A stretch of 64,000 nt of DNA from Marmoricola sp. URHB0036 (GTDB lineage Bacteria > Actinomycetota > Actinomycetes > Propionibacteriales > Nocardioidaceae), in NCBI RefSeq assembly GCF_000426045.1, contig NZ_AUEP01000015.1, positions 1 to 64,000 of the forward strand. The letters run 5' to 3'. The notes below the pieces were generated by a model. It was not told the DNA's origin. It was given only the letters and a program-made list of their open reading frames with translations, and did no database searches. The position numbers and the translations under genes were made by a program. Shown in pieces: positions 17,571 through 58,744 of the stretch (the stretch's first letter is position 1; every line of letters starts with the position of its first letter).

Positions 17571-17659
17571 TGGCGGAGGATAGGGGATTCGAACCCCTGA
17601 GGGCTATTAACCCAACCCGCTTTCCAAGCGAGCGCCATAGGCCACTAGGCGAATCCTCC
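17571..17659 (-). tRNA. tRNA-Ser (anticodon GGA)
   Basis: On the minus strand: acceptor GGAGGAT/ATCCTCC, anticodon loop TTGGAAA giving GGA (reads UCC/UCU), a long class-II variable arm typical of tRNA-Ser, T-loop GGTTCGAATCC, discriminator G and an encoded CCA (17571-17573). The 274-bp stretch between mmsA and this tRNA holds a (CGC)n run near 17326-17343 and no gene that I can support. Confidence 0.95.
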
Positions 17660-17811: not shown

Positions 17812-17898
17812 AACCCCCCGTGCGGCGGTATCTCACTGAATCCCCCAGGGCCGGAAGGCAGCAAGGGCAGGTGGGCTCTTCCGGGTGCACGGGGGGCC
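17812..17898 (+). ncRNA. ffs: Signal recognition particle RNA, small bacterial type (4.5S)
   Basis: The terminal helix is CCCCCCGTGC with GCACGGGGGG, and the apical domain has the conserved SRP Ffh-binding core GGAAGGCAGCAAGGGCAGG...CTCTTCC with the GGCA/AGCAGG-type symmetric loop. Size (about 85-90 nt) and single-hairpin shape fit the short SRP RNA of actinobacteria. It binds Ffh and directs ribosomes making membrane and secreted proteins to FtsY. Ends are judged from the helix and may be off by a few nucleotides. Confidence 0.92.
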
Positions 17899-17912
17899 TT
17901 CTCGTTCCCGGG

Positions 17913-26780: not shown

Positions 26781-26854
26781 TCGGGGTGACAGGATTTGAA
26801 CCTGCGGCCTCGTCGTCCCGAACGACGCGCGCTACCAAGCTGCGCCACACCCCG
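26781..26854 (-). tRNA. tRNA-Pro (anticodon CGG)
   Basis: Minus strand: acceptor CGGGGTG/CACCCCG, D-arm GCGCAGCTTGGTAGCGC, anticodon loop TTCGGGA giving CGG (reads CCG), T-arm GCAGGTTCAAATCCTGT, discriminator A. CCA is not encoded. Confidence 0.95.
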
Positions 26855-46985: not shown

Positions 46986-48461
46986 ATGTCCGACACCTAC
47001 ACCTTCGCGCTGCTGTTGGTGGTGACGGCTGCGGTGGTGCTGGCGGCGGTGCTGGCCAACCGCCTGACCCAGTGGCTGCGGATCCCCGCACCAGCGCTGG
47101 TGCTGGCTGCCTCCGCGGTCGCACTGCAGGTCTTCCCGGACCTGCACACCCCGGCCGAGCAGACGGTCGACCGGCTCGTCACCGTGGCGCTGATCTTCAT
47201 CCTGTTCGACGGGGGGATGGGGATCGGCTGGTCGAGGTTCCGGGGTGCGGCCCGCCCGATCGCGATGGTCGGCATCCTGGGCACCTTCCTGACCGCCGTC
47301 GCAGGCGCCCTGTTCCTGCACCTGGTCGTGGGCCTGGACTGGTACGCCGCCGTGCTGGTCGCGACCGCGATCGCGCCGACCGATCCCGCCGTCGTGTTCT
47401 CCGTCCTCGGCCAGCGCGAGGTGTCCGGTCGCAGCGGCACCATCCTGGAGGGCGAGTCGGGCGCCAACGACCCGGTCGGCATCGCCCTGATGGCCAGCCT
47501 GCTCACCGCGGGTGGCATCTCCGGAGGCGCCATCGGGCACATCGCCGCAGAGTTCCTGCTGCAGATGGCCGTGGGAGCCGTGGTGGGCGTCCTCGGGGGG
47601 CAGGCCCTGCTCTGGTTCATGCGGCACGTGCCGTTGCCGGAGGAGGGTCTCTATCCGCTCCGGACTCTGGCCTGCGCGCTGGCCCTGTTCGGGGTGGCGA
47701 CCCTCGCGCACGGGTCCGGCTTCCTGGCCGTGTTCGTCGCCGGCATCCTGATCGGGGACGCGCGGGCGCCGTACAAACGGGAGATCGAGCACTTTCACTC
47801 GGGACTCTCCAGCCTCGCCGAGATCGTGGCCTTCGTCGCGTTGGGACTGACCGTGGACCTGGGCGTGCTCGCGCATACGGAGGTCTGGGTTCCGGGCGTC
47901 GCACTGGCGCTCGTCGTCTCGCTGGTGATCCGGCCCGTCGTGGTCGGTCCGCTCCTCGCCGGCTCAGGACTGCAACGGAACGAGAAGCGCTTCTTGATGT
48001 TCGCGGGGCTCAAGGGGGCGGTGCCGCTCCTGCTCGGCAGCTTCATCCTCAGCGAGCACATCGACGATGCCGAACGGCTCTACGGGATGGTCGTGATCGT
48101 CGTCGTGCTCTCGGTGGTCGGCCAGGGCAGCCTCGTGCCGACAGTGGCTCGCCTCCTGAAGGTGCCCATGCGGGAGGTCGAGCCGGAGCCGTGGTCGCTC
48201 GGAGTACGGCTCCGCGACGAGCCCAACGGCGTACACCGCCTCACGGTCGCACGCGGTTCGGCCGCCGACGGGTCGAGGATCTCCGACCTCACGGTGCTGC
48301 CCGAGGGTGTGTGGGTGAGCTTCGTCGTACGTCGGGGCCAACTGGTGCCGGTCAGCGCAGAGACGGTGCTGGAGGCAGCCGACGAGGCGTTGGTTCTCGG
48401 CGATCCCAGCGCGGGCCCGGAGCTGCGTGCCGTGTTCGAGGGCTCTGCGTCCGAGGAGTAG
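46986..48461 (+). CDS. Cation/proton antiporter, CPA1 type, second copy
   Basis: 491 aa; ATG with GGGGAGCGCC upstream. 12-13 TM segments; FDGGMGIGW, APTDPAVVFSVL and the ion-binding motif GESGANDPVGIA, then TrkA-C/RCK_C-type tail (LRDEPNGVHRLTVARGSAADGSRISDLTVL). Same family as the gene at 7740 but clearly divergent. Likely K+/H+ exchange. Confidence 0.87.
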   Translation: MSDTYTFALLLVVTAAVVLAAVLANRLTQWLRIPAPALVLAASAVALQVFPDLHTPAEQTVDRLVTVALIFILFDGGMGIGWSRFRGAARPIAMVGILGTFLTAVAGALFLHLVVGLDWYAAVLVATAIAPTDPAVVFSVLGQREVSGRSGTILEGESGANDPVGIALMASLLTAGGISGGAIGHIAAEFLLQMAVGAVVGVLGGQALLWFMRHVPLPEEGLYPLRTLACALALFGVATLAHGSGFLAVFVAGILIGDARAPYKREIEHFHSGLSSLAEIVAFVALGLTVDLGVLAHTEVWVPGVALALVVSLVIRPVVVGPLLAGSGLQRNEKRFLMFAGLKGAVPLLLGSFILSEHIDDAERLYGMVVIVVVLSVVGQGSLVPTVARLLKVPMREVEPEPWSLGVRLRDEPNGVHRLTVARGSAADGSRISDLTVLPEGVWVSFVVRRGQLVPVSAETVLEAADEALVLGDPSAGPELRAVFEGSASEE

Positions 48462-48518
48462 CCCCGCGTCCACCGGGTCGATTTCCTGGTCGGCCCTGTG
48501 TCTGGGAGGATGGGACCC

Positions 48519-48690
48519 GTTGGAGGGGAGTATTCCTTCGCGGCGGTCTCGTCATCACGGTCTGGCCACAGCACCTCGGCCCAGACCCGGGATCGTCGGT
48601 CGCGACGATGCGGCGGAAGAGACCTCCGGACAGCTGACACCCGCACGCGTCGTACGTCGCGTGCGCAGGAACTGGTCCGGAGGCCCGAAG
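48519..48690 (+). promoter_or_regulatory. yybP-ykoY manganese riboswitch with SD-sequestering switch
   Basis: Upstream of terC. Conserved elements are all there: 5' TGGAGGGGAGTA (48521-48532), GTCTCGTCATCACGG, paired CGGTCTGG/CCCAGACC, and the 3' AGAGACCTCC (48618-48627). GGAGG (48522-48526) pairs with CCTCC (48623-48627) to close the aptamer. The same CCTCCGGAC (48623-48631) is also exactly complementary to GTCCGGAGG (48675-48683), which is the ribosome site of terC (ATG at 48692). Aptamer closure and SD masking are therefore alternatives: with Mn2+ the SD is free (ON); without it the SD is hidden (OFF). Confidence 0.85.
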
Positions 48691-48691
48691 C

Positions 48692-49684
48692 ATGGATGTA
48701 TCCCCACTCACCTGGTGGCTCACGATCGGCATCACCAGTGCCGTCCTGCTCGTCGACATCGTCGTCATCGGCCGACGCCCTCACGAGCCCTCCCGCAAGG
48801 AGGTCAGTGTCGCGCTGGGCGTGTTCGTCGGCATGGCCGTCGCGTTCGGCATCGGCGTCTGGTTCTTCGCCGGTCACCAGTACGGCACCGAGTTCTTCGC
48901 CGGCTGGCTGACCGAGTACTCCCTCTCGGTCGACAACCTGTTCATCTTCCTGATCATCATGAACAAGTTCGCCGTACCCAAGCAGCTGCAGCAGAGTGCC
49001 CTGCTCGTCGGCATCGTGCTCGCGCTGATCATGCGCGGCATCTTCATCGCCGTCGGTGCGGCCGCGATCAACGAGTTCAGCTGGGTCTTCTACCTCTTCG
49101 GTGCCTTCCTCATCTACACCGCCGTCAAGCTGGCCCGCGAGGGGCAGGAGGACGAGCAGGACTTCGAGGAGAACCGACTGATCAAGTTCGTCGAGCGCCG
49201 GTTCCCCGCGACAGCTGAGTGGCACGGCAGCAAGATCCTGACGCACGAGAACGGCAAGCGCGTGATCACGCCGATGTTCATCGTGATCATCGCGCTGGGC
49301 ACCACCGACCTGCTGTTCGCGCTCGACTCGATCCCGGCGATCTACGGCCTCACCAGCGAGCCGTACATCGTGCTGACGGCGAACATCTTCGCCCTGATGG
49401 GGCTGCGTCAGCTCTACTTCCTGATCGGTGGCCTGCTCGAGAGGCTGGTGTACCTCTCCTACGGACTCGCCTTCCTGCTCGGCTTCATCGGCGTCAAGCT
49501 GGTGCTGCACGCGCTGCACGAGAACGAGCTGCCGTTCATCAACGGCGGCGAGCCCGTCGGCTGGGCGCCCGACGTCCCGATCTGGGTGTCCCTGGGCGTG
49601 ATCATCGGCACCCTCGTCATCACGACCGTGGCCAGCCTGATGAAGACCGGGCTGTCTGGCCGCAAGCCCGCCGACCAGGTGTGA
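48692..49684 (+). CDS. TerC/Alx family manganese exporter
   Basis: 330 aa, about nine TM helices; conserved EYSLSVDNLFIFLIIM and DLLFALDSIPAIYGL with the paired Asp residues that bind metal. TerC proteins move Mn2+ out of the cytoplasm; the riboswitch upstream makes a manganese role much more likely than tellurite. Charged loop (REGQEDEQDFEENRLIKFVERRF) in the middle. GGAGG 8 nt before the ATG. Confidence 0.92.
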   Translation: MDVSPLTWWLTIGITSAVLLVDIVVIGRRPHEPSRKEVSVALGVFVGMAVAFGIGVWFFAGHQYGTEFFAGWLTEYSLSVDNLFIFLIIMNKFAVPKQLQQSALLVGIVLALIMRGIFIAVGAAAINEFSWVFYLFGAFLIYTAVKLAREGQEDEQDFEENRLIKFVERRFPATAEWHGSKILTHENGKRVITPMFIVIIALGTTDLLFALDSIPAIYGLTSEPYIVLTANIFALMGLRQLYFLIGGLLERLVYLSYGLAFLLGFIGVKLVLHALHENELPFINGGEPVGWAPDVPIWVSLGVIIGTLVITTVASLMKTGLSGRKPADQV

Positions 49685-58024: not shown

Positions 58025-58744
58025 GTGCCCCACCCGTCGACCGATTCCGCCAGTGACCCGCTCGCCTGGCTCACCGGGCTCGAGGGCGTGCCGTCGGCCT
58101 TCGCCGCGACCCGTGACGGGATCGACGTGATGCTGCGTGACCGCGGACTGCGCCGGACCTCGCCGGAGCAGACGGCGGAGTCGCTGTTGAGGGGTGCACA
58201 CGCCAGCGCCGAGCTCGCCGGATCGGCTTCGTCGCTCGAGGACGTGCGTGCTGGTCTCGGTGACGAGGTGGCCGCCGGCGCGGTGCGGGTGAGCACCGAG
58301 CTGTTGTCGCTCGTACCCGTGATCGGGCGTTCGCCGCTGCAGGCGTTCGCGCGGCTGCACGTGCTGGCCGGCGGGTCCGGGCAGCCCGGCTCGCCCGAGG
58401 GTGCTCAGCGGCTGCAGTCGTTGTCGGCCACCTTGCTGGCGACCTCGACACCCGGGCTGATCGTGGCGGCGCTGGTGCACGCCGATCTCGTCACGGCCGA
58501 GCCGTTCGGCACCCACGACGGGCTGGTAGCGCGCGCGGCCGAGCGGCTGGTCATGGTCGCCCGGGGAGTCGACCCGGCCTCGCTCGTCGTACCCGAAGCC
58601 GGGCACCTGGCCCTGCGGGCGGCGTACGAGTCGAACCTGCGCGGCTACCGCGACGGCGGACGCGACGGGCTGCACTCCTGGTTGCTGTACGCCGCCGAGG
58701 CACAGACGAAGGGCGCCGAGGCGAGCCCGCTCCTGGACAGATGA
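58025..58744 (+). CDS. Rv3662c-like conserved protein, possibly degenerate Fic fold
   Basis: 239 aa, GTG 7 nt after TAGCGT (leaderless). Mostly helical. HADLVTAEPFGTHDGLVARAAERLVM recalls the Fic motif (H-P-F-x-D-G-N-G-R) with catalytic His and GNGR lost, so at most a dead Fic-like scaffold. Conserved beside ssd in actinobacteria; function unknown. Its stop overlaps a small ORF (ATGA). Confidence 0.75.
   Translation: MPHPSTDSASDPLAWLTGLEGVPSAFAATRDGIDVMLRDRGLRRTSPEQTAESLLRGAHASAELAGSASSLEDVRAGLGDEVAAGAVRVSTELLSLVPVIGRSPLQAFARLHVLAGGSGQPGSPEGAQRLQSLSATLLATSTPGLIVAALVHADLVTAEPFGTHDGLVARAAERLVMVARGVDPASLVVPEAGHLALRAAYESNLRGYRDGGRDGLHSWLLYAAEAQTKGAEASPLLDR

Follow-up and report, generated by a model that had tools for sequence, protein, structure and literature searches.

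A leader without helix P2 upstream of terC in Marmoricola: a predicted yybP-ykoY Mn2+ aptamer and a conserved helix that competes for the Shine-Dalgarno sequence

The terC leader and its aptamer fold

The window, that is, the whole stretch of 64,000 nucleotides that was analysed, comes from the soil bacterium Marmoricola sp. URHB0036, whose genome comprises 4.83 Mb in 22 contigs. The terC gene is located at 48692-49684 on the + strand, as are all the leader elements described below, and encodes a protein of 330 aa that matches TIGR03718 of the TerC/Alx family (378 bits against a cutoff of 246.4) and PF03741. Its closest named relatives are found in Marmoricola and Nocardioides, with protein identity up to 85%. 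The ATG of terC is at 48692, and 8 nt separate it from the Shine-Dalgarno (SD) sequence GGAGG at 48679-48683. In the abstracts of published work, TerC-family proteins are tied to Mn2+. The gene 5' of the terC leader encodes a cation/proton-antiporter-like protein and ends at 48461. Scanning of 48430-48720 revealed neither a sigma-70-type promoter nor a terminator-like site that could serve as an intrinsic terminator. Besides the leader, the window carries a bacterial small SRP RNA and two tRNAs, at 17812-17901 (+), 17574-17659 (-) and 26781-26854 (-).

The first-pass annotation of this DNA read the leader as a yybP-ykoY Mn2+ riboswitch, and all the strings that it named are present where it placed them, with GGAGGGGAGTA at 48522-48532 and AGAGACCTCC at 48618-48627. 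The hand-drawn fold of 48522-48627 consists of P1.1, L1, P1.2, an 11-pair P3 with the L3 bulge, P3.1 and a P4 hairpin, and it has no helix P2. The 5' strand of P1.1, the 5' side of the switch helix, is GGAGG (48522-48526), which is letter-for-letter identical to the five letters of the terC SD; it is placed by sequence and by covariation of this first helix. Its partner, the 3' strand CCUCC (48623-48627), is common to P1.1 and the anti-SD helix, and both helices covary. The core of L1, GGAGUA (48527-48532), is closed by P1.1 and P1.2, and the 5' strand of P1.2, UUCC (48533-48536), pairs with 48615-48618, where covariation among UA, CG and GC was observed. Only 4 nt lie between P1.2 and P3 and there is no P2 hairpin, so the junction is not of the four-way type. 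In P3, the 5' strand (48541-48551) forms 11 pairs with the 3' strand (48588-48598), and the 7-nt bulge L3, UCAUCAC (48552-48558), has an adenosine at position 3. Behind L3 follow the P3.1 hairpin (48559-48587, in which 48559-48565 pair with 48581-48587) and, beyond P3, the P4 hairpin (48599-48614, in which 48599-48603 pair with 48610-48614). P3, P3.1 and P4 are drawn from the hand fold and covariation. The segment 48615-48622 holds the 3' strand of P1.2, GGAA, and the 3' side of L1, GAGA, as judged by covariation and conservation.

L1 GGAGUA, GAGA and the L3 adenosine are conserved in relatives. In alignment A3, which holds 49 chosen sources, all of them matched, A occupies the L3 adenosine column in 49/49 rows, and each position of GGAGUA is conserved in 48-49 of the 49; the rows were found by covariance models built from motif-selected rows, which favour the motif letters without demanding them, and A3 shares some loci with A1. 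A48554 aligns with the invariable adenosine known as A41 in L. lactis and A48 in X. oryzae. In L. lactis L3 reads UCA41AUUC, in X. oryzae it reads ACA48UACU, and this adenosine contacts Mn2+ (PMC6754395).

Covariation supports all five aptamer helices. Alignment A1 is a sequence-only alignment of 56 of 68 non-redundant aptamers; its rows were picked by motif (GGAGTA, GTCA.., AGACC), and those letters are invariant by construction. When the hand structure was laid on these 56 leaders, 91.4% of the cells were paired, and 195 cells showed double changes, as compared with 61.4 +/- 6.3 after shuffling and 29-53 with slid partners. Two-sided changes are present in pairs of every helix, P3.1 being the least regular (76.1% of cells paired). 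A larger excess, 298 double-change cells against 89.3 +/- 6.9, was obtained with 49 hits of the covariance model R2, in an alignment fitted to the structure.

Covariance models and known members of the class

The first-pass annotation proposed a search with RF00080 as a check and counted the lack of a covariance hit against the riboswitch. The search was negative: RF00080 (Rfam 15) is absent among the gathering-cutoff matches of the window (cutoff 45 bits), gives no match over 48440-48760 at E up to 10, and gives none in the whole source genome at E 0.001. This test is unsound. The same model gave no hit at E up to 0.1 on the E. coli alx leader (L118:5377-5499) and scored E. coli mntP (L119:5462-5558) at 41.6 bits, under its cutoff, and for this reason its silence cannot refute an aptamer. 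RF00080 of Rfam 15 pairs P2, P3 and P3.1, and leaves its first 25 positions, including L1, unpaired, so that it contains neither P1.1 nor P1.2.

Two covariance models built from Actinobacteria, R1 and R2, behaved differently. R2 was built from 13 leaders with the window left out. Eight of them are from Segeticoccus, Humibacillus, Terracoccus, Intrasporangium and their kin, of the Intrasporangiaceae (L075 is labelled only Actinobacteria). The remaining five are L095, whose label goes no further than Propionibacteriales, and four leaders from the window's order but from other families. R2 scores 48522-48627 at 89.8 bits (E 8.5e-22); its second-best match in the window lies at 58188, has 15.9 bits and was taken as chance. 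On the E. coli alx leader, R2 aligns end to end at 45.7 bits (E 7.9e-10 in 84 kb), and R1 scores 47.2 bits. The R2 matches make the terC leader homologous, in sequence as well as in structure, to a member of the class that is known from experiment. The four-way mntP leader was reported by neither R1 nor R2. In relatives, R1 also picks up sites at which RF00080 matches weakly. Two extra R1 hits in the source genome (20.9 and 20.1 bits) are weak and were taken as chance. Among 80 named terC loci, 68 have the aptamer motif and one more (L057) was reached by R1; in the remaining 11, R1 found nothing at E up to 1. The aptamer identity given by the first-pass annotation is thus supported by homology to alx and by helix covariation, and judged by homology and core the terC leader RNA belongs to the yybP-ykoY class.

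The E. coli alx leader, the yybP-ykoY riboswitch called PRE, shares with the terC leader a fold without P2, L1 GGAGUA, GAGACC on the 3' side and an Alx/TerC-family gene downstream; its L3 is UCAUUAC, as compared with UCAUCAC here. It differs in a longer P4, the arm behind P3, and, as judged by eye, in its platform: the P1.1 3' strand GACCUUGCC is followed by a GGAA loop and the partner GGCGAGGUC, which is not the SD itself. Also by eye, GACCUUGCC and GGCGAGGUC (L118:5493-5514) pair at nine positions, one of which is G-U, and lie some 65 nt ahead of the alx start. The streptococcal mgtA gene belongs to another phylum and, unlike terC, encodes a P-type ATPase. Its Mn2+/Ca2+ riboswitch is described as a yybP-ykoY RNA with a three-way junction like the present one, but as activating transcription (PMC9495176). 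Because alx lacks P2 and a three-way mgtA RNA has been reported, P2 is not required for class membership. The four-way yybP-ykoY RNAs of L. lactis and X. oryzae, which RF00080 of Rfam 15 describes, share the L1/L3 core, the invariable adenosine and the P1.1 switch helix, but they have the fourth helix P2, and that of X. oryzae acts by transcription (PMC6754395).

An actinobacterial terC leader is also on record. A table based on an older RF00080 lists the C. glutamicum terC leader as yybP-ykoY at 49.13 bits and as "observed" by RNAseq (PMC3890552); in the C. glutamicum genome, taken here as a control, the present RF00080 gave no match at E 0.001. Both the three-way form (PMC9495176) and, through an Rfam-based table (PMC3890552), a terC leader from Actinobacteria are already in the literature. 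Among the literature matches listed, no title or abstract start described an actinobacterial terC leader that combines a P2-less Mn2+ riboswitch with an anti-SD platform, or the direct pairing of a P1.1 strand with the SD of terC in this phylum; we do not claim that they are absent from print.

Two helices in competition for one strand

The first-pass annotation described 48623-48631 as perfectly complementary to both the 5' closing strand and the strand that holds the SD. This is correct for the second pairing, in which all nine letters of CCTCCGGAC (48623-48631) are complementary to GTCCGGAGG (48675-48683); for the first, only CCTCC (5 nt) of CCTCCGGAC matches GGAGG. In the RNA, the anti-SD strand CCUCCGGAC (48623-48631) and its partner GUCCGGAGG (48675-48683), which contains the SD, are separated by an expression-platform linker (48632-48674) with a GC-rich hairpin that differs in relatives. 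P1.1 and the anti-SD helix share CCUCC and are mutually exclusive.

Conservation of the anti-SD helix was analysed in 111 entries (110 loci and the window). An aptamer was parsed in 96; a strong SD core is present in 71 of these and absent from 25. These entries count the window twice (WIN and L010) and other contigs twice, and distinct leaders number 81; both competing helices are conserved among them, except in the 22 without a strong SD core. Many Nocardioides terC leaders without this core (e.g., L087, L092 and L117) have a hairpin like CGGCGUCCGCG/CGCGGACACCG just 3' of P1.1, and they also carry a C-rich stretch and an AGGAG site.

The two arms of a given locus pair better with each other than with arms taken from other loci. 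For 49 distinct arm pairs, the mean energy was -16.8 kcal/mol, as compared with -14.4 +/- 0.29 kcal/mol for permuted arms (0/20000 as good), and the portion outside CCUCC/SD gave -5.2 against -3.8 +/- 0.26 kcal/mol (0/20000 as good). L013 was misparsed in this energy test, its second GAGACC having been taken, and was parsed correctly in the SD-anchored alignment of 62 rows. In 53 of these rows, 180 of the 212 cells of columns 5-8, which lie outside the CCUCC/GGAGG core, were paired, against 147.5 +/- 4.5 after shuffling (0/5000) and 147.4 +/- 4.7 after swapping whole arms (0/5000 as high), and 30 double changes were observed against 13.8 +/- 3.2 (0/5000). The nine rows left out (L013, L070, L075, L080, L083, L091, L094, L100 and L115) are anchored on GGAAGG and need a bulge or another anchor. 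With all 62 rows, in which the bulged ones are out of register, columns 5-9 still gave 210 paired cells against 176 +/- 5.7 (0/2000), and the excess of double changes was weaker (41 against 29.3 +/- 4.1, with 11/2000 shuffles as high).

Swaps and shuffles leave shared ancestry in; the stronger argument lies in how varied the solutions are. Compensated outer arms were observed as GGUUAC/GUGACC in L100, CGAGGG/CUCUCG in L016 and GACAGC/GCUGUC in L056. In L153, all three strands have changed together, P1.1 being GAAGG/CCUUC and the SD likewise GAAGG; in L009, L011 and L162, P1.1 is also GAAGG/CCUUC but the SD is still GGAGG, with a G-U pair. Covariation of both helices supports the proposal that the closing helix competes with the anti-SD helix. 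The computations show the aptamer fold, the conserved core, the homology to alx and a conserved helix of the P1.1 3' strand with the SD, which competes with P1.1.

Proposed control of terC and spread of the aptamer in Actinobacteria

Folding energies bear on how such a switch could work. The best fold of the full leader contains the anti-SD helix (-89.2 kcal/mol), the pair 48625-48681 having a probability of 0.96. Forcing P1.1 gave -75.1 kcal/mol, a cost of 14.1, or of 8.8 relative to a fold that keeps the inner aptamer, and with P1.1 forced the SD bases were only 15-65% unpaired. Among 59 leaders with a strong SD, forcing P1.1 costs 4.2-23.7 kcal/mol (mean 10.4); it raised SD exposure in 50/59 of them and in 13/22 weak-SD leaders. 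The leader's fold energy itself is unexceptional (z -1.69, with 12/200 shuffles as good). In folds of growing prefixes, P1.1 belongs to the best fold at 48628-48634 and is lost already at 48640, before the SD appears, and the anti-SD helix is present from 48682 on. These nearest-neighbour energies ignore L1-L3 docking. The 9-14 kcal/mol advantage of the OFF fold would exceed what Mn2+ binding could plausibly supply at equilibrium. As the OFF fold is computed to be more stable by this amount, the switch would have to act during transcription; it is most likely co-transcriptional, that is, kinetic, and a plain equilibrium switch is unsupported by the computed energies. The ON/OFF translation logic of the first-pass annotation is supported as regards its two conserved competing helices. 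For a transcriptional Mn2+ riboswitch, a nascent-helix mechanism has been argued (PMC11087558). In X. oryzae, Mn2+ is described as lowering the accessibility of the 3' half of the switch helix, and this effect is gone in the A48U mutant (PMC6754395).

Taken from sequence and comparison, the reading that we prefer is that a P2-less aptamer of the yybP-ykoY class at 48522-48627, with a three-way junction as in E. coli alx, would bind Mn2+ and control terC translation, which we consider very probable. At high Mn2+, L1 and L3 would dock around metal ions and P1.1 (GGAGG/CCUCC) would be held, leaving the SD GGAGG free, so that TerC would be made; the RNA would be a translational ON switch. At low Mn2+, the SD, once transcribed, would take CCUCC from the P1.1 strand GGAGG, to which it is identical, and the resulting 9-bp anti-SD helix would turn translation OFF. 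The decision window would be the passage of RNA polymerase through about 55 nt of linker and SD.

SD masking is coupled to Rho in other riboswitches. The Mn2+ aptamer might accordingly be kept here while the main control is exerted by premature, Rho-dependent termination or by mRNA decay after loss of translation, and not by access to the SD. The 22 distinct leaders that have an aptamer and no strong SD core are in keeping with this, as they suggest that the aptamer can work with another platform; we nevertheless consider it rather unlikely, given that the terC leader has no intrinsic terminator and the anti-SD helix itself covaries. Less likely still is that an aptamer of this fold answers a different cue, be it Ca2+, Mn2+ combined with alkaline pH, or some other divalent ion. 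For E. coli mntP, full activation reportedly requires Mn2+ and alkaline pH together, and alx reportedly responds to alkaline shock (PMC9603457); the mgtA riboswitch of streptococci reportedly also binds Ca2+ (PMC9495176). L1, L3 and the Mn-contacting adenosine are nonetheless of the canonical kind here, and TerC-family proteins are tied to Mn2+, as noted from abstracts. That the nine-nucleotide complementarity is a by-product, CCUCC being fixed by the aptamer and GGAGG by ribosome binding, would fit the five pairs of the core, which both roles fix and which are each paired in 51-53 of 53 rows, but it is very improbable in view of the covarying pairs of columns 5-8 and of L153, in which the SD has changed along with P1.1.

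The aptamer has relatives in other genomes. At E 0.001, R1 matched in 47/61 genomes of the family, a figure that favours R1 because it was partly trained on the family, and RF00080 matched in 6/61, none over its cutoff. In 296 genomes of the phylum, R1 matched in 58 and RF00080 in 10 (one over cutoff), and no genome is in both lists; both the family and the phylum searches used stricter filters, which lose weak matches. At the ten RF00080 loci of the phylum, the motif is readable in eight; by eye, seven have a clear P2 hairpin and L170 has a weak one. The next gene was inspected at 18 chosen R1-reached loci out of 57 R1/RF00080 aptamer loci. Fourteen of the 18 match Pfam metal-transporter families (TerC 8, P-type cation ATPase 2, GDT1 2, Na/Ca exchanger 1 and VIT1 1), and four have no Pfam match, their frames perhaps being wrongly chosen. 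The aptamer lies upstream of a gene of Mn2+ homeostasis, terC, here, and ahead of metal-transporter families at 14/18 related loci. At L001, among these 18, inspection by eye suggests a P2. Three Nocardioidaceae loci (L002, L004 and L007) represent a second subtype with L3 ACACACU, reached by both R1 and RF00080, and L002 and L007 precede GDT1-family cation transporters.

It is conceivable, though we regard it as unlikely, that the terC leaders of Actinobacteria are a separate branch within the Mn2+ riboswitches, nearly invisible to Rfam, in which the 5' closing strand copies the gene's own SD. Two identical GGAGG strands would then exchange for one CCUCC, the outcome being decided only by Mn2+ docking and the timing of transcription, and the displaced GGAGG might hold a standby ribosome.

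A non-hit with a public model can hide an alx-type Mn2+ riboswitch, and the natural compensatory changes make the anti-SD switch logic directly testable with reporters. The finding suggests that such leaders may govern TerC, along with other metal transporters, in many high-GC Actinobacteria.
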